Shown here piece by piece: positions 7,538-35,523 of a stretch of 42,057 bases of DNA (within the stretch, counting starts at the first letter, position 1; each line of letters opens with the position of its first letter). The notes below the pieces were generated by a model. The model was not told where the DNA came from. It searched no databases and saw only the letters and a program-made list of their open reading frames with translations. The translations under genes were made by a program, and so were the position numbers. The DNA comes from a virus, in IMG/VR virus record IMGVR_UViG_3300033153_004872, positions 1-42,057 of that record. The stretch is one strand, 5' to 3'.

Positions 7538-7900
7538 TTAAAAAAGAGCTCCTATAACTCTCTGTTCATCTACAAATATATCTACAAAAGCACCATCCCT
7601 CTCATCAGTTGAAAAGAATGTAACTTGAGTATCTATTGTATACCCAGCTAGATCTGGTAAACAATACGCAGCTATCTGGCTATTAATTTTATTTTGGATT
7701 GTACTTTCGTTATTAACAAATGAAAATAACAAGTCTTCCAAATTACAACCCATACTTGGTGCCCCTAAAACATCACCTGTTCTTGTAAAAAGAACATTTT
7801 CAATTTTTAAAATTAATTGAGAGATTGAATCAGATACCTCTAAAGTATTATCATTATACTTAGGATCTTCAACATCTCTACTATAAATATCTCTAATCAT
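7538..7900 (-). CDS. Baseplate wedge protein, gp25-like
   Basis: 120 residues, usual size for gp25/GpW-like wedge proteins. The diagnostic stretch is at about residues 37-58: T-R-x-G-D-V-L-G-x-P-x-M-G-C-N-L-E-D-L-L-F, matching the 'R.GE....P.fG..l..llf' core of this family. The rest shows the expected helix-strand pattern ending in a short beta hairpin. In contractile tails gp25 clamps wedge proteins to the sheath and hub. It is the first gene after a late-type promoter motif (TATATAAT, 7920-7927 on the minus strand) and leads into the gp6-like gene 13 bases downstream. Confidence 0.9.
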   Translation of the reverse strand: MIRDIYSRDVEDPKYNDNTLEVSDSISQLILKIENVLFTRTGDVLGAPSMGCNLEDLLFSFVNNESTIQNKINSQIAAYCLPDLAGYTIDTQVTFFSTDERDGAFVDIFVDEQRVIGALF

Positions 7901-20288: not shown

Positions 20289-23200
20289 TTAATTGTAAAC
20301 ATATTCTATTCGATACTTAATCGACCAAGGTTTATCAGAAGACAATGTAATACCAGTACCTCCAGTATCAACAACTTCAAAGGCAAATCCTAATTTATAG
20401 AACTCCTCACGAGTCAATGTGAGAGTAGCTGTATCTAAAATAAAACTCCATGCATATTCTCCGAATGGTCCAGGAACTGTATTAGGTGATATCTGATATG
20501 TTTGAGCGTCCATAATTGTACCAGTAGGTTGATCTGTTGGTGTTGCAGGACCAGCAGTATTAGGAACTATATCAAATTTCTTAATTGCTATTCTAACTCT
20601 TCCTAGATAAGTAGGGTTTGATACTTGCTCTTGTAAGTATGCCATTCCAGTTACTCTTATAAATCCTCCAGTTAAATCATCAGCTGGTGTTGTGTTACCA
20701 ATAAATGCAGCATCAATTAAATCTTCAGTATCAAAGGTATCTGTTTGAGCCGTCTGCATTTCATAGTATTTTTGAGTCGTTGCATCCGGTGAACCCCAGT
20801 TAGGAGCAAGACCACCTACTGCGTATTTACCACTGATAAAACTTCCATTCCAATCAGGTGCTCCAGTTCTATATCCTGAAAACCTATTCATCAATTGTAC
20901 TGGGGCAGTTGCAGAGCCCGCCGGACCTGTAGCTCCAGTTGCTCCAGGATTACCTTGTGAACCTTGATTACCTATGGCACCTTTATAACCATTCATACCC
21001 CAACCAAATACTGGTTGTGTATATGTTAAAATACCAGCACCACCTATATAAGTACCTTTCGTTAATTCTATACCACCATTAACTCCATTTGTAGTACTAA
21101 TATTATTAGGAGCGAATGAATAATAATTTACTTTATCAGGATCTCCGTATTCCCATACTCTAACGAATGCAGTATTGTCAGATGCCGTTATTGTCGCATT
21201 CCATGCAGAGTATACCGTATTACTATTTTGATAATCGATAGGATTACCAGATTGAGGGTCATTACCTGTAGCACTTAAATACATATTGACCTGACCGGCA
21301 GCAGGTTTCCAATTAGGTCCATCAATGTTTGCATCATTTGCACTAAAACTTCCAGTGTTAACATTGGCAGAAGTATATATTGTAAGGAATCCACCATAAT
21401 CTCCTCGTGTACCTGTTGCACCTTGTTGACCTTGAATACCAGCTCCCGTTGCACCTGTTGCTCCAGTAGCTCCTAAAGTTATACCAGTAGATCCTTGGAC
21501 TCCTACTGCACCTTGATTACCAACAACTCCCGTTGCACCCTGCGCTCCTGTACTTCCTTGTACACCGAGTGGTCCTTGATCTCCAACTTTACCTTGAGCA
21601 CCTGTTGCACCTTGTTCACCAATAACACCTTGAGAACCAGTTGCACCTTGTTCACCAACGGCACCTTGAGTTCCTGTTGCACCTTGTTCACCAACGGCAC
21701 CTTGTTCACCATTGGCTCCCTGGGCTCCTGTAGCGCCTTGTTCACCAACTGCTCCTTGATTACCTATAGCACCTGTTGCGCCTTGAGAACCAGTATCTCC
21801 TTGAGAACCAGTTGCTCCTTGTTGACCGATTGCACCAGTTGCACCAGTTGCACCAAGTAAACCACTTGCTCCTTGTTGACCAATAGCACCAGTTGCTCCT
21901 TGAGATCCAGTAGCACCTTGTTGACCTATAGCACCAGTTCCACCTTGTTGACCAATTAAACCAGTTGCACCTGTTGAACCAATCGCACCAGTAGCTCCTT
22001 GACTTCCTGTTGCTCCTTGTTGACCGACGACACCAGTTGCTCCTTGTTGACCGACGACACCTGTTGCACCAGTTGATCCGAGTAAACCACTTGCTCCCTG
22101 TTGGCCTATTGCACCGGTTGCTCCTTGTTCGCCTATTGCACCAGTTGCACCAGTTGATCCGAGTAAACCACTTGCTCCTTGTTGACCTATTGCACCGGTT
22201 GCTCCTTGTTCGCCAACTGCTCCTGTAGCTCCTTGAGAGCCAGTAGCACCTTGTTGACCTATTGCACCGGTTGCTCCTTGTTCGCCTATTGCACCAGTTG
22301 CACCAGTTGATCCAAGTAAACCACTTGCTCCCTGTTGACCGACGGCACCAGTTGCTCCTTGTTGACCGACGGCACCTGTTGCACCTTGTTGGCCAGTTAA
22401 ACCACTTGCTCCTTGTTGACCTACAGCACCTGTTGCTCCTTGGAAACCAGTTGCACCAGTTGATCCAAGTAAACCACTTGCTCCTTGTTGACCTATTGCA
22501 CCTGTTCCACCCTGTTGGCCAATTGCACCAGTTGCACCAGTTGATCCAAGTAAACCACTTGCTCCTTGTTGACCGACGGCACCAGTTGCACCTTGTTGAC
22601 CTATAGCTCCAGTTGCTCCTTGTTGTCCTACAGCTCCAGTTGCTCCTTGGCTTCCTGTTGATCCTTGCATTCCTGTTGCTCCACTTGCACCTGCACCTGT
22701 TGCTCCAATAAATCCAGTTGCTCCAATACCAGTTGCTCCTTGTTGTCCTACAGCTCCAGTTGCTCCTTGGCTTCCTGTTGATCCTTGCATTCCAGTTGCT
22801 CCAATACCAGTTGCACCGGTAAATCCAGTTGCACCGGTAAATCCAGTTGCACCAGTCGCACCAACATCACCGTTACCGACAACTTTAGTTAATGTAAAAG
22901 ATACATTATTCATTGTTATAGTAGATGCAGATGCATTATCAGTTTTAAATCTAACATCTATCACATCACCCGCGGCAAATGTTTCTAAACCGTTTATTGA
23001 AAAAGATCCACTTGTATTATTAGCAAACGCTCTACTTGTTTCTGTTTGTGCAATGATAACACCATTCTTAAATACTCCTACTGTTATTTCACGATTAGCA
23101 CCAGATGTAATAGTATAAATACCACTCATTTTATAAACCCCACCTTCACCTGCATCAATAACTAAAGTATCACCCTGTGCACCTCCGCCAGATGAGACAT

Positions 23201-26200
23201 ATGACATTTGGCTTATTTCACCTACTGCTGAAGTATCCCAGCCATCAAAAACATTATTCCATCCTGCTACTGGGGTAGAACTTAATTCATACATTTCACC
23301 GTATGCAATTGATCCGCTTACCACCCCAGTAGCTCCGGTAAATCCAGTTGCACCAACCCCAGTAGCTCCAGTAGATCCAGTAAATCCAGTTGCTCCAATA
23401 CCAGTTGCACCGGTAAATCCTGTTGCTCCAGTAGCTCCTTGGCTTCCTGTTGCTCCAGTAAATCCAGTTGAACCTATACCTGTTGCACCAGAACCTGTTG
23501 CTCCAGTAAACCCAATAGAACCAGTAGCACCAGTTGCGCCAGTGGCACCACCGCCACCTCCACCGCTACCTTGTAAGTATATACAGTAATTTACATCCTG
23601 GTTTGAACCAGAGGTTGGTGTCCATGCACCACCACTTATATAATTCACAGTTAACTCTTCATAATTACCAGTAGATTGGATATTAGTAACTAAATATGAA
23701 GCAGGTCCTGTAGTAGGTGGAGTAAAAACATTTTCTTCAAATGTAATTATATCACCAACGGTAAGTAATGTTTGTAAAGGGTGAGCTATGCTACTACCAA
23801 TATGAAATGTAGTTACAGTAGACATAAGTCCACCACCCCCATTATGACTTATAGTATTAGTGGCAGCACTTAAAATATTGTTCCATCCAACCCAATTAGG
23901 ATCTGTAGAAGAATTAATACATGCACCGCTAACACTAACAATAGAAGCTCCAGTGGCTCCTTGGGATCCAATACCAGTTGCTCCAGTAAACCCAATAGAA
24001 CCAGTAGCACCAGTTGCGCCAGTAGCACCAGGAGGTCCACCGCTAGGACCCTGTGGACCAGTTGCTCCAACTTCACCAACAGAATTAATTGTTATAGTAT
24101 CAGCAACCTCATCAATTACAAAAGTTACATTTGTACCTGGTATTAAATCAACATCACTAGTAGCAGCACCGTCATCTAATTGAATACTTGCACTTCCATC
24201 AGTATTTTCTAATACAGATAAATTATAAGGTGCTAATGAAGCATTCTCCCATTGATTAGTAGTACTATTATATACAATAAGATCATCATCTTGTACATTA
24301 GTAATAGTAACATCAGTTAATTGTCCTAATGATGTTGCTCCACCACTTCCTCCTGCCTCAACATCAACATAACCTCTATATAAATGTCCATTAGCAGAAT
24401 TAATCCATAATGTTCTTTCTGAAATAGTTCCACCACTAACATCATTACATGCAGGGTTAGCTGCAAGAGAAGGAAGAACTAATCCACCTTTATCAATATT
24501 AACACAGCCTACAAAATAACCAGCCCATGTACCACTATCAGTAATTAAGTCTGTTAAAACTGCTTCACCATTATTTTCATTAGGAGCAAATGTATCTACT
24601 ACATTAGAATATAATCCTACTGTTTGTGGGCTACCTCCAGCATCTGCTTCTGTAAAATATATCATTTCACCAACAGTGATAGCTAAACTATTTTTATAAG
24701 ATAAGGATATGTTAGAACCGATATACTTAGTAGCTGCAGGTGTTTCTCCTGGAACAGGATTTGTTATAATAGAACTTCCTATATAACGACTAAAATCAAT
24801 ACTAAGAAATTGGCTAAGATTATTACCTTCAGCAACACTATCATATGTCAAACTCATATTTTGAGAATAACCTTTAAAGTTAGGGATTGGTGTATACAGC
24901 GATTTAATAGTAGATGTAAAAAAGGTAGGTGTTTGATCATTGTAACCAATAATCTGATTTTCTCCAAACTGCAATGTTCTTATTCCCCAACCTTGTGCAA
25001 CATCTTGTGTCTTATAGACTGAACCTCTCCAATTATCATCTGAGTCAAACCTACCAGAAGCTAGAGTTTGAGAAACCATTGGAACCTTAAAGTCATCAAC
25101 AGCTGCCATAGTATCTGTTGTTAATTGAGGTATATACAATTCATTATTAGCAGATATCCCTAGCGCATCTACAGTTAAGCCACCTGGGCTAGCTCCCATT
25201 GTAATATAATATGATGGTGGGACACCTATTGCTTTAGCATATACGCCAGTGTTAGCTTTCACAACACCAGCTAAACTATGCTGTATTCCAGTTACACCGT
25301 CTGCTAAAGAATTTCTTAATTGTAATTGATGTTGGTTTGAAAGGTTAGAAATATGAACGCCTGTTCCTAAATCAGAAGACCTATTAAATTGTAAATTACC
25401 AACTGCACCATTTAACCTAACTATCCTATCAGCATCCAAGATTAATGAACTAGTGGTATATATGTTTTGTTGTCCTAAACTACCTAATGATGTTGGTGCC
25501 CATACACCTGAACCTGCATTCCATTGCAAAATATCTAATGGTTGAGGTATAACATCTGATACGTTTGATAGCATACCAATTAAAGGTGCACCATCATTTA
25601 AATTTGCAAGATTAACCTTTGCCTCATTAAAATTATAAACAATATTGTCCTGTACATTATTAGTACTAATTGATAATGCAGTACCTGTAGTATTAGTAGC
25701 ATCAAATCCTCTAAATTGTAAATTAACACCAGACTTACCTGCATAAACATCTTGGTGAGTTACACCTTGCCCTATATTTTCACCGAGGTTAGCTTCACCT
25801 GGATTAGAGGCTAATGAATTAATTAATACAATAGATTTAGATGCTAAGTTATATTGAAGCTGCATCCCTTGTCCAGCAATAAGATTAAAAGTATCATCAC
25901 CAACAGTGGCTTTCATTAAAGCATTACTTCCATTTTGTAAAGCTCCAGTAGGTAATGTAGAATTTATATTAATCTTACCAAAGCCATTTGAACCTGATAC
26001 ACTAATAGATCCAGAACCGACACCACCAATAATATCCCACTCAGAAGTATCAAACACACCTTGTGTAGTTCTAATGTTAGCTCTCCACCAAACGAGTACC
26101 TGATCTTCACCAGTAGTTGTAGGATCATCTATAACTACAGGATGATAAACAATATTACCTATCTCATATATTCTAGACTCTACCCATGGGTTAGATACCA

Positions 26201-26297
26201 TTTGAAAATTAGTATCAACCTCTCTATTGAATAGCTCTCTTCTTACCTCTGTTCTAAAAAGAATATATTCTTGTAGGTTATTAAATGACGTTGCCAT
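20289..26297 (-). CDS. Giant collagen-like tail fibre protein
   Basis: 2002 residues. Residues 1-92 form an attachment region, where [17 protein letters not shown] and [11 protein letters not shown] resemble the short aromatic carbohydrate-binding modules (CBM5/12 type) found on phage fibres. Gly-X-Y tracts occur at about residues 741-784, 909-994, 1145-1632 and 1769-1789, with units such as GATGAIGQQ and [13 protein letters not shown]. Between tracts lie globular beta domains (about 785-905 and 1000-1140). The C-terminal 210 residues form a compact domain, probably the receptor-binding tip. Collagen-like tracts trimerise in other phage fibres. The long GQQ-rich tract is unusual and is encoded by near-identical DNA repeats. 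Confidence 0.85.
21400..22862 (-). repeat. Tandem DNA repeats encoding the collagen-like tract
   Basis: About 1.46 kb of degenerate 9- to 27-base units encoding Gly-X-Y triplets, with longer duplicated blocks. One block of about 63 bases is identical at 22611-22673 and 22731-22793 (120-base offset). Blocks coding for [13 protein letters not shown] recur near 21840, 22070, 22145, 22305, 22460 and 22540. Such DNA should expand or contract easily. Confidence 0.85.
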
Positions 26298-30447: not shown

Positions 30448-30756
30448 TTAGTTAATTTCAGGAGGCTCTTCTTCATCATTCCACGGGCCATCTAAAAATA
30501 ACATCGTTTTTAGTTTTTGTAAATTAGTACATCTTTCATATTGTTCTTCATGTTCAAAATACTTAATAAGACCGTCTATACTTTCTATTTTACTTTCAAT
30601 AGAATCTTTTCTTTTTAAAACTGCACTAGGGCTTTGCATCAAAACGTGGTATGATAAATCCATAAATCTATCAAAGTCAGTATGTTCTAATGTTAGCAAT
30701 AAATTTTTTAAGAATTCATCGCTAAAACCTTTTCCTTTTTTAGGATCTTTTGCCAT
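30448..30756 (-). CDS. Small helical protein, unknown
   Basis: 102 residues. Residues about 60-85 (GLIKYFEHEEQYERCTNLQK) resemble the paired-helix UVR motif of UvrB/UvrC and Clp-type proteins, but the match is short. Its start overlaps the end of the downstream DnaJ piece by 17 bases, placing it in the chaperone transcript. A chaperone partner or adaptor is conceivable. Confidence 0.6.
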   Translation of the reverse strand: MAKDPKKGKGFSDEFLKNLLLTLEHTDFDRFMDLSYHVLMQSPSAVLKRKDSIESKIESIDGLIKYFEHEEQYERCTNLQKLKTMLFLDGPWNDEEEPPEIN

Positions 30757-31018
30757 TGTGTTTATTCTTTATTTTTGTTATTAACATTTTATCTTCATCA
30801 TCTAAATCTGTAGGTATATCTACGATTATGCTTATAAGTAAATCACTATACTTACCTTCTTGTTTATAAATAGGAAACCCTTTTCCTTTTACTCTAAGGA
30901 CCTTTCCATTAGGAGTACCTGGTGGAATTGTGAAAGAAATAATTTTATCAAAACAATCAATACTTTCCTTTCCACCTAACAGTGCATCATAAAGACTTAT
31001 ATTTTTTATTGTATGCAA
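30740..31018 (-). CDS. C-terminal part of DnaJ/CbpA-like chaperone (after in-frame TGA)
   Basis: The 92-residue piece matches the second C-terminal domain of DnaJ/CbpA: ISLYDALLGGKESI, then IPPGTPNGKVLRVKGKGFP. It is in the same frame as the upstream piece, separated by TGA (31043-31045) and eight codons (DFFLDNQG). Those eight codons and the residues around them fit a continuous DnaJ alignment. No ATG is near; the only candidate is TTG at 31016-31018. It is therefore either read by readthrough or reinitiation, or is lost. Confidence 0.7.
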   Translation of the reverse strand: MHTIKNISLYDALLGGKESIDCFDKIISFTIPPGTPNGKVLRVKGKGFPIYKQEGKYSDLLISIIVDIPTDLDDEDKMLITKIKNKHNGKRS

Positions 31019-31042
31019 TCCTTGATTGTCTAAAAAGAAGTC

Positions 31043-31576
31043 TCAATCATTTATTACTTCAATAGTCATTATTAAATCACCATTAAGTTCTTCAGTCTGG
31101 CCACGTTGGCCTAATCCTTTTAATCTTAATTTCTGGCCATTTTTAATTCCAGCTGGAATATCAACCTTTATGGTTTTCATTCCAATGCCAACATCTCTGC
31201 TTGTACCATAATATGCATCAGCTAAAGATATTCGTAAAATACCACTAGTGTTTCTGCCTTTAGAATTATATCCATACCTTTGATTAAAAGCTCCAGCAAA
31301 ATTTTGATTTCTTAATAAGTCTTCAAACATACTGCCTGTAAAATCATGACCAAAATCAGCAAAAGGATTATTGGCTCTTTGATCATATTGAGCTTTCTTC
31401 TGAGGATTGCTTAAAGTTTCGTATGCATCAGCAACCTCTTTAAATTTATCTTCATTACCAGAGCCTTTATCAGGATGATACTGTTTAGCTAATTTTCTAT
31501 AAGCTTTTTTAATCTCACCATCAGATGAATTTTTATCTACTCCTAATATGCTATACGGATCTTTCATTATTTCCAA
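31043..31576 (-). CDS. dnaJ: DnaJ/CbpA-like co-chaperone, N-terminal part
   Basis: 177 residues. The J domain (about residues 5-70) has the essential HPD at 34-36 (KQYHPDKG), followed by a Gly/Phe-rich stretch (about 90-100) and C-terminal domain I (about 112-177, [10 protein letters not shown]). There is no cysteine-rich zinc domain, so it is the CbpA type. It ends at TGA with the second C-terminal domain continuing in frame. J proteins deliver clients to DnaK; phages use host DnaK for replication and assembly. Start may be the second ATG ([10 protein letters not shown]). It overlaps the upstream membrane gene by ten bases. Confidence 0.85.
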
Positions 31577-33991: not shown

Positions 33992-34019
33992 AAAAAGACC
34001 ACTCTATGAGTGGCCTTTT
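33992..34019. terminator. Bidirectional rho-independent terminator
   Basis: A-run, stem CCACTC-TAT-GAGTGG, then CCTTTT. Extra A/T pairs flank the GC stem on both sides, so it can work in both directions, between the plus-strand unit ending at 33970 and the minus-strand gene ending at 34037. Confidence 0.85.
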
Positions 34020-34036: not shown

Positions 34037-34561
34037 TTATCTTAGCTTAATATATTTCTTTCTATTTTGAATATACATTTCTCCTATTGGAGCTTCTATT
34101 AATTCTCTACCTAATACATCAAATATTCTATAGTCTTGCTTTTCAATATTGTACAACTCATCTATCCCAACTGTTGCATTACCCATTCTCATCCAAGCCT
34201 GACCATCCCATACTTGATTAAAACAACAATTCATTGTGTCAACATAACCTAACGAATCTGTTAAGGTATAACTAATACATGTTGTAATTGTATCATACGG
34301 CATGCCTGTAGTTGGATTGTAATTATATACTACATGATTACATGGTTGATTAAAACAACTATCTTCACCTAACATTGTTTGATCACCATAAGTTACAGCA
34401 TATAACGGAGCCATCATTGGTAAACTATTTCCAGTTACAGGAATTGCTACTTCTAATTGATATTGTGAACCTGTCGTGTAAGTCATGTTTGAATCACATA
34501 ATGTCTGTGCTTGTAATTGTAGGCCAAGCGAAACCATTACCATCATTAAAATCTTCTTCAT
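34037..34561 (-). CDS. Exported protein with type IX secretion-like C-terminal domain
   Basis: 174 residues. Residues 1-19 are a typical signal peptide (MKKILMMVMVSLGLQLQAQ, cleavage after an AQ). The mature part is Cys-rich (six Cys, including SCFNQPC and NCCF). The end carries the pattern of the Bacteroidota T9SS type-A sorting domain: IFDVLGRE (146-153), a Gly, MYIQN (162-166) and KYIKLR (169-174), where typical domains show 'V.D.LGRE....G.YI....GK..K...'. T9SS substrates cross the inner membrane by Sec, then the outer membrane. Preceded by a late-type promoter. The CTD is short (about 50 residues). The role of the mature part is unknown. Confidence 0.75.
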   Translation of the reverse strand: MKKILMMVMVSLGLQLQAQTLCDSNMTYTTGSQYQLEVAIPVTGNSLPMMAPLYAVTYGDQTMLGEDSCFNQPCNHVVYNYNPTTGMPYDTITTCISYTLTDSLGYVDTMNCCFNQVWDGQAWMRMGNATVGIDELYNIEKQDYRIFDVLGRELIEAPIGEMYIQNRKKYIKLR

Positions 34562-34576
34562 CTTTATTTTTATTTA

Positions 34577-34584
34577 ATTATATA
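34577..34584 (-). promoter_or_regulatory. Late-type promoter motif
   Basis: Minus-strand CTCTATATAATTAAATAAAAA about 16 bases before the exported T9SS-like gene; TATATAAT core. Confidence 0.5.
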
Positions 34585-34632
34585 GAGAGCTTAATTTTTA
34601 GTTTAGGTTCAACTCTCGAGAACCTTACAACT

Positions 34633-35013
34633 TCAAGAGTAAGTTATTTCTATGTTTCCACCAGTATGATCCATTACCCATATATTTTCTTTTATCATTT
34701 TTTGGGCATGTAAGATTTCTGCTTTGTATTCATTCCAATCTTCTTCAGCTTTAATTTGGTCTTTTATATCTTGGCCTAGTTTAAGAGCTTCATCAACTGT
34801 ATGTTTCTTTTTAGGTTTAGGTTCTACTAGTCTTAATTCGGATCCTATAAATTCTGCAATAAGTTTTGAGCTAGCATAAATTTCTTTTACTGCTTTTCTT
34901 TCTGGCATTAAGCTATTTTCACTTTCCATAATTTTTGCTATGTATGCTTTTGGGTACTCAACATCATACTCTGTTTCTTTCCCATTCATATATACTACTT
35001 TTACTTTTACCAT
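34633..35013 (-). CDS. Unknown protein
   Basis: 126 residues. Beta-like start (MVKVKVVYMNGKETEYDVEY), then a Lys/Pro-rich joint (about 65-70) and a helical C-terminal half (DEALKLGQDIKDQIKAEEDW). Located between the T9SS-like gene and the transglycosylase gene; no signal peptide. No family recognised. Confidence 0.62.
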   Translation of the reverse strand: MVKVKVVYMNGKETEYDVEYPKAYIAKIMESENSLMPERKAVKEIYASSKLIAEFIGSELRLVEPKPKKKHTVDEALKLGQDIKDQIKAEEDWNEYKAEILHAQKMIKENIWVMDHTGGNIEITYS

Positions 35014-35016
35014 ATC

Positions 35017-35523
35017 TTATAAATTTATTTTTGCATAATTTTGTACTTTCTTCCAATAGTGAGAAGTTGCAGGTTTTTTAAATCCTTTAGGGCCGCCATT
35101 CCAATTCCTGGCCATCTTTTCAAATGAACTATCAAGATGGTATGCATCTGCCCATATGTTAAACATTTCAATTGACTTGTCACCATTCCTTCTATCACTA
35201 TTTTTAAATCTTTTATCTAGGCCTCGTTTTCGTAGTATGCGATTTACCTCTCTAACCATGATCGGTCTAATTTGTAAAAGACCTACTGATGGTGAACCTA
35301 AATTAAGATCCCCAATTATTGCAGGATTGCCACCGCTTTCAACAAATGCCATAGCCTCTATCAATTCTTCTCGGTTATCTATCTTTCCGTTTATAAGATT
35401 AACTTCTTCTTCTATAATTTCAATTATAAGATTATCTTTAACTTCTATAACCTCATGTTGCATACTTGTAGAACCTGTCATCGTAAGCAAGAACGTTGAT
35501 ATTAGTAAAATATTTTTCATCAT
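35017..35523 (-). CDS. Exported lytic transglycosylase (SLT family)
   Basis: 168 residues. Residues 1-20 look like a signal peptide (MMKNILLISTFLLTMTGSTS). The catalytic core has Glu62 in AFVESGGNP, GLLQIRP (81-87) and a late ARNWNGGP segment, the motif order of lysozyme-like transglycosylases. It would cut peptidoglycan in the periplasm, for lysis or for release. Its ATGATG start overlaps the TGA of the upstream gene. Because the spike at 11724-12644 has no lysozyme domain, this may be the main cell-wall enzyme seen here. Confidence 0.85.
   Translation of the reverse strand: MMKNILLISTFLLTMTGSTSMQHEVIEVKDNLIIEIIEEEVNLINGKIDNREELIEAMAFVESGGNPAIIGDLNLGSPSVGLLQIRPIMVREVNRILRKRGLDKRFKNSDRRNGDKSIEMFNIWADAYHLDSSFEKMARNWNGGPKGFKKPATSHYWKKVQNYAKINL

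Follow-up and report, generated by a model that had tools for sequence, protein, structure and literature searches.

The window, that is, the whole 42,057-nucleotide stretch of viral DNA analyzed here, encodes a 174-residue protein, P0001, that is very likely a cargo protein which a phage of marine Flavobacteriales addresses to the Type IX secretion system (T9SS) of its host. As judged from sequence comparisons, it would leave the cytoplasm by way of a Sec signal peptide and then cross the outer membrane by virtue of its C-terminal tail of about 43 residues, most plausibly a short T9SS sorting domain. The original prediction had proposed a phage protein directed to the host T9SS by a type A C-terminal domain (CTD) with a beta-sandwich: the core idea finds strong support in these comparisons, whereas the type A sandwich does not hold. 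The features of the gene and its surroundings are collected in Table 1.

Table 1. Features of the P0001 gene and its neighbourhood (positions in the window)
Feature	Position	Strand	Basis
Gene of the predicted exported phage protein P0001, 174 aa, ATG to TAA	34037..34561	-	ORF and translation; relatives
Sec signal peptide, residues 1-18, predicted cleavage between A18 and Q19 (Q-rule)	34508..34561	-	Sequence; relatives; PMC5837995
Mature body, residues 19-131, beta-rich, probably Ig/Fn3-like	34169..34507	-	Model; alignment
Flexible linker, residues 129-142, with predicted PT/GI-like sortase site between V131 and G132	34136..34177	-	pLDDT below 50; dN/dS 0.88
Putative short T9SS C-terminal sorting domain, residues 132-174	34040..34168	-	Tail profiles; model
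Motif B, FDVLGRE, residues 147-153	34103..34123	-	Alignment; PMC11969387
Motif D, GEMYI, residues 160-164, GxxY spacing	34070..34084	-	Alignment
Motif E, KKYIK, residues 168-172	34046..34060	-	Alignment
Promoter-like TATATAAT, 23 nt upstream of the ATG	34577..34584	-	Likeness to tail/baseplate-region elements
Leader palindrome GGTTCTCGAGAGTTGAACC, conserved	34606..34624	-	Stays with the gene where upstream genes differ
Terminator-like hairpin downstream of the P0001 gene, common to convergent plus-strand genes	33993..34019	-	
Upstream neighbour, 126 aa, no family	34633..35013	-	Synteny
SLT-like lysozyme gene, upstream, signal-peptide-bearing	35017..35523	-	Match below curated cut-offs; not constant in relatives

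The P0001 gene and its phage setting

The plus strand is crowded with stop codons throughout the P0001 gene, and the coding strand, which the original prediction had left unstated, is the minus strand. The translation opens with MKKILMMVMVSLGLQLQAQ, runs on with TLCDSN, includes IFDVLGRE and closes with GEMYIQNRKKYIKLR; its 174 residues include six cysteines, and four in the body (C22, C69, C95 and C113) are conserved. Between 24 and 48 viral loci keep a relative of the gene, and the mean dN/dS in the family is 0.15 over the body, 0.88 over the linker and 0.15 over the tail, which is the pattern expected of a folded cargo, a linker that is cut and a folded signal. Given this conservation, the dN/dS pattern and the match of the tail to an independent HMM (see below), we take the ORF and its sorting signals to be real rather than products of chance.

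The same contig encodes baseplate, tail-sheath-like and fibre genes, and the order lysozyme, 126-residue protein, P0001 is kept at four related loci (L002, L003, L004 and L025). The tail and baseplate genes, together with this synteny, indicate that P0001 is encoded by a phage gene and is not bacterial contamination. The sheath-like protein matches those of large phages with mostly Bacteroidota hosts, namely Tenacibaculum phages pT24 and PTm1, Flavobacterium MaF61, Chryseobacterium MA9V-1 and Prevotella Lak, as well as PAU, whose record names Sphingomonas.

The promoter-like element of P0001 resembles one found in the structural block at a distance of 20-38 nt before six genes on the minus strand, that of the sheath-like protein among them, and is a probable late promoter; from its resemblance to the elements of structural genes we infer that P0001 is probably made late. 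More generally, two classes of promoter-like elements are seen on the minus strand between positions 7900 and 40153 of the window, (A)ATATATAAT before structural genes and TATAnTTATAnTATAA before accessory genes. The RNA folding energy of the leader palindrome, taken alone, is not significant. Just upstream of the gene in L016, L017, L018, L020 and L055 there is a hairpin resembling a tRNA T-arm, GTTGGTTCGAATCCAAC; it was rejected as a tRNA because ARAGORN predicts none and Rfam gives no match at the site, and it is possibly a recombination site.

Elsewhere in the window, a 2002-residue protein (20289-26297, minus strand) with a long stretch of collagen-like GAT/GQQ repeats is probably a fibre. 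A DnaJ-like gene (30740-31567, minus strand) is split by a single in-frame TGA (31045-31043); its relatives, for instance that of L003 (8264-9088), are uninterrupted at this position, and the TGA may represent real decay, recoding or an assembly error.

Signal peptide, body and linker

The Sec signal peptide of the original prediction was retained, but its end, placed there after residue 19, was shifted by one residue: the A18-Q19 pair is invariant across 28 aligned relatives and fits the Q-rule described for signal peptide cleavage in Bacteroidetes (PMC5837995), which makes cleavage between these two residues the likelier one. A signal peptide was likewise recovered in all 68 distinct complete ORFs bearing the same kind of tail, with 66 conforming to the Q-rule (background ORFs: 90/448), where the calls come from a simple home-made script rule rather than SignalP, and the 68 are not independent in that many have common bodies.

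The model of the entire protein is weak (pLDDT 63), with residues 129-142 disordered between the body and the tail. Foldseek searches initiated with it recovered Fn3/Ig matches that are likewise weak (best E 0.04), while a search of the PDB with the model of the tail found nothing; hence, the structure searches carry no weight in the T9SS argument. No enzyme-like motif was seen in P0001.

The tail as a putative short T9SS sorting domain

The C-terminal IFDVLGRE, Gly, MYIQN and KYIKLR that had been singled out as T9SS hallmarks are all present in the translation. To place them in context, an HMM built from 14 bacterial T9SS-type tails with unrelated bodies was run against the 1033 frames of the window: P0001 was the sole match (E 3.6e-13), the next-best frame scoring E 0.8. 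In profile-profile comparisons, the phage tails match the bacterial short tails (98%, E 6e-14), which in turn match the long CTDs (E 2e-6); the phage tails also match the long CTDs (57%, E 1.1e-4), with the similarity lying mainly over motif B. None of 200 column-shuffled controls attained any of these scores. The tail ends within 0-3 residues of the C-terminus in each of the 68 tail-bearing ORFs, and is found on proteins as different as Omp28, AhpC/TSA, thioredoxin-like, BNR and xylanase-like proteins.

Across the tail relatives the F/Y-D-x-x-G-R signature and K168 are conserved. The predicted cleavage site reads TV/GI in P0001 and PT/GI in relatives, with I133 present in 90% or more of them. 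The spacing of motif D in P0001 is G-x-M-Y-I, unlike the textbook G-x-Y-I; both GxYI and GxxYI occur among the related tails of bacteria and phages, those of phages being mostly GxxYI. Counted from the predicted V131/G132 site to the C-terminus, the tail spans 43 residues, which lies within the published 40-55 residue range of short CTDs; the domain of TIGR04183 and PF18962 has 70-80 residues. Modelled alone, the tail reaches a pLDDT of 81, rising above 90 over the motifs and the last ~27 residues, and is predicted to form short strands in a small three-stranded arrangement, as published for short CTDs, instead of the beta-sandwich that had been foreseen for the C-terminus. It has neither the YPNP strand nor the full beta-sandwich of the type A CTD.

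The HMM check that had been suggested, using TIGR04183 and PF18962, yielded no match for P0001. Searches of Pfam, NCBIfam and PHROGs with the protein and a tblastn search of INPHARED were equally negative, and the NCBIfam T9SS models caught none of 28 relatives. When TIGR04183 was run on the phage records with relatives, the P0001-type gene went unmatched save in L025, where the score of 12.4 bits fell short of the cut-off of 23. However, bacterial cargo that ends in a tail of this type, for instance xylanase-like and BNR proteins, likewise escapes both TIGR04183 and PF18962; we therefore do not take the missing match as a refutation. The failure is misleading in that these models cover a domain of 70-80 residues. 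The original prediction had offered the want of both an HMM match and a sandwich as grounds for rejection, a rule that would reject P0001 wrongly since the same models miss bacterial cargo with this tail.

Exchange of bodies and further cargo in related phages

The relatives show that the parts of the gene vary separately. In L025, at the same position between the same genes, the DNA of the leader (89% identity), signal peptide (86%) and tail (80%) is close to that of the window while the body is only 50% identical; L005 presents the reverse, with a body at 86% and a tail at 68%. At the equivalent place L061 encodes two tail-bearing proteins, one Omp28-like and the other small and related, and in L056, L063, L119 and L121 a tandem pair of body domains is followed by a single tail. 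Such variation of the body, flanked by a signal peptide and a tail that stay constant, is consistent with a diversifying product exposed at the cell surface.

Some relatives encode additional T9SS-type cargo. G001, a 55-kb relative whose protein is 88% identical, has a protein combining cohesin with PF18962 (TIGR04183, 41 bits) and another short-tail protein within a run of genes encoding signal peptides. Six further tail-bearing viral records and the 462-kb phage LR756500 each encode a single full TIGR04183 protein; those of the six viral records are frames of 1130-1341 residues, with GCTDxxAxNYNxxAN repeats in those inspected, and in most of the full-TIGR04183 phage proteins a PT/SI-like site lies upstream of the long CTD. 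Host-like cargo in the phage relatives includes Omp28, redoxin and cohesin.

The run in G001 (L028, 5224-11603) comprises eight genes, most with signal peptides, among them the short-CTD protein, a 398-residue protein with a weak SdrD-B-like match, a 364-residue protein and the cohesin protein with a T9SS CTD, the others having no assignment; sugar-nucleotide-like genes are nearby. In L221, L222, L223 and L224 a signal-peptide protein of ~360 residues resembling an outer-membrane barrel adjoins the 1130-1341-residue T9SS repeat protein.

Bacterial genomes bearing the tail

All nine bacterial genomes with the tail encode SprA and contain 4 to 97 TIGR04183 matches each. Two further tail-bearing records, titled Pelagibacter and Nitrosopelagicus, have no SprA (0/2) and are probably misbinned phage contigs. 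The loci L122 and L123, from Nitrosopelagicus and Pelagibacter bins, resemble misbinned phage DNA of the P0001-related group. The phyletic distribution is narrow: the tail occurs in 26 of 52 genomes of the flavobacterial family of G021 (23/49 minus the three genomes that led there), whereas in a phylum-wide sample the centre genome alone bears it, with none among the 296 others, and a second phylum has none in 298 genomes apart from a probable misbin (G035). Being clade-restricted and concentrated in one flavobacterial family, this version of the tail offers an indirect clue to the likely host family. A chromosomal relative of P0001 from Flavobacteriales (L125) has the same tail and lies amid T9SS-like cargo, including deiminase-like and choice-of-anchor V genes.

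Proposed mechanism and alternative explanations

The sorting signals, their co-occurrence, the modularity of the tail and its association with T9SS-bearing genomes are all supported by the comparisons above. In the mechanism we consider very likely, P0001 would be exported by Sec and cut between A18 and Q19 by signal peptidase I; its cysteine-containing, Ig-like body would then fold in the periplasm; and the last ~43 residues, as a minimal short CTD, would be recognized by the host T9SS, with its SprA translocon and PorV-type shuttle, and the protein taken across the outer membrane. A PorU-type sortase might then cut the linker near V131/G132, leaving the body on the surface or releasing it.

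Two alternatives place the protein elsewhere. P0001 might be exported by Sec and stay periplasmic or bound to the outer membrane, with its C-terminus being the end of its own fold and the likeness to T9SS signals arising by chance or from some other shared function. The curated T9SS models that find no match, the GxxY spacing and the tail model that has no structural counterpart would all accord with this, but it is decidedly improbable: the tail is found on many unrelated bodies, always C-terminal and always together with a signal peptide, in SprA-bearing bacteria, and the near-neutral linker lies between two constrained parts. That P0001 is instead a fibre or decoration protein of the virion is exceedingly improbable; the contig is rich in tail genes and the promoter element is like theirs, but for cytoplasmic assembly a protein would hardly need cysteines, a secretion tail or a signal peptide of the Q-rule type, and this one has relatives on bacterial chromosomes.

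If P0001 is a T9SS cargo, we tentatively favour, among its conceivable uses, a covering or remodelling of the infected cell's exterior that would lower adsorption of the same or competing phages; the original prediction had named adsorption, superinfection or gliding as conceivable targets. The main rivals are a host-directed benefit and lysis. As an auxiliary gene captured from the host, P0001 might serve adhesion, particle binding or nutrient capture rather than defence against phages, and both the chromosomal relatives with the same tail amid T9SS-like cargo genes (L125) and the host-like cargo of the phage relatives speak for this; yet no signs of lysogeny were seen, slow benefits would be of little gain to a lytic phage, and the promoter element is like that of structural genes, so that this use appears rather doubtful. 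A cargo that weakens or modifies the outer membrane late in infection, and so aids lysis or release, would suit the late-type promoter element and the upstream gene with its SLT similarity, itself below cut-offs, as well as the gene order conserved at the four loci and the lysozyme near the distant relative L122. However, the close relatives L005, L009, L013 and L023 (82-84% identical protein) have no lysozyme neighbour, the Ig/Fn3-like body shows nothing enzyme-like and the bacterial chromosomal relatives lie outside any lysis context (L125); a lytic function is accordingly improbable. We give little weight to a role in the virion or in lysis only, since the gene travels separately from its lysozyme neighbour and has relatives on chromosomes.

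Beyond P0001 itself, it is conceivable, at somewhat less than even likelihood, that a widespread group among the phages of marine Flavobacteriales keeps a display slot, in which a fixed leader, signal peptide and short tail with exchanged bodies would give infected cells a variable coat, chosen by the phage and displayed through the host T9SS, and that the short signal constitutes a second, unrecognized class of address label in Flavobacteriales.

Relationship to known systems

Phage genes with Q-rule signal peptides have been noted in Porphyromonas gingivalis phages, where they are of unknown function and were suggested to modify the host envelope (PMC10367356). P0001 shares with them the Q-rule signal peptide in a phage gene, but T9SS is unmentioned in that work. 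The P0001 tail resembles the type A domains of TIGR04183 and PF18962 in where it sits and in its cargo logic, to which profile comparison adds motif B, and related phages carry full versions of these domains; it differs in lacking the YPNP strand and the full sandwich, and falls below detection by the models.

A close parallel comes from Prevotella intermedia, whose T9SS cargo includes proteins with signals of 40-55 residues, cleavage and glycosylation having been established by mass spectrometry for some (PMC11969387). The layout of these short CTDs comprises a PT/GI site whose Ile is conserved, motif B of the form Tyr...Gly-basic, motif D of the form GxY (or GxN) plus Ile, motif E with a basic residue, and a single sheet of three strands; P. 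intermedia is the only species reported to have both CTD lengths (PMC11969387). The P0001 tail agrees with them in its length class, the predicted PT/GI-type site with Ile, the Tyr/Phe...Gly-Arg motif B, motif E and the accompanying Sec signal peptide, and probably in motif D and the single small predicted sheet. By contrast, P0001-type tails occur in marine Flavobacteriales and their phages, and their motif D is mostly GxxYI. As standard T9SS models miss the short signal, cargo bearing it is probably undercounted in phages and Flavobacteriales.

A phage-encoded T9SS cargo was proposed in 2020 for Cryophage, where it was called a unique occurrence, and a change of the cell surface and superinfection exclusion were suggested (PMC7468147). 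In both cases phage proteins with predicted T9SS sorting domains vary between phage variants; however, the type A sorting domains of Cryophage are borne by an endoglucanase, a GH39 enzyme and a protein with PA14, whereas P0001 belongs to a family of small, probably Ig-like proteins whose short tail escapes T9SS models, in a large-phage lineage and on many contigs. With the P0001 tail it becomes possible to test directly whether a phage uses the secretion machinery of its host to redecorate that host. As far as the literature searched shows, three points are new: that phages and Flavobacteriales have the short-CTD form at all, how broadly it occurs, and that bodies are swapped between constant signals. 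Cryophage is the sole earlier report of phage-encoded T9SS cargo that we found there; here such cargo appears to recur across a marine phage lineage, some members of which encode several types.
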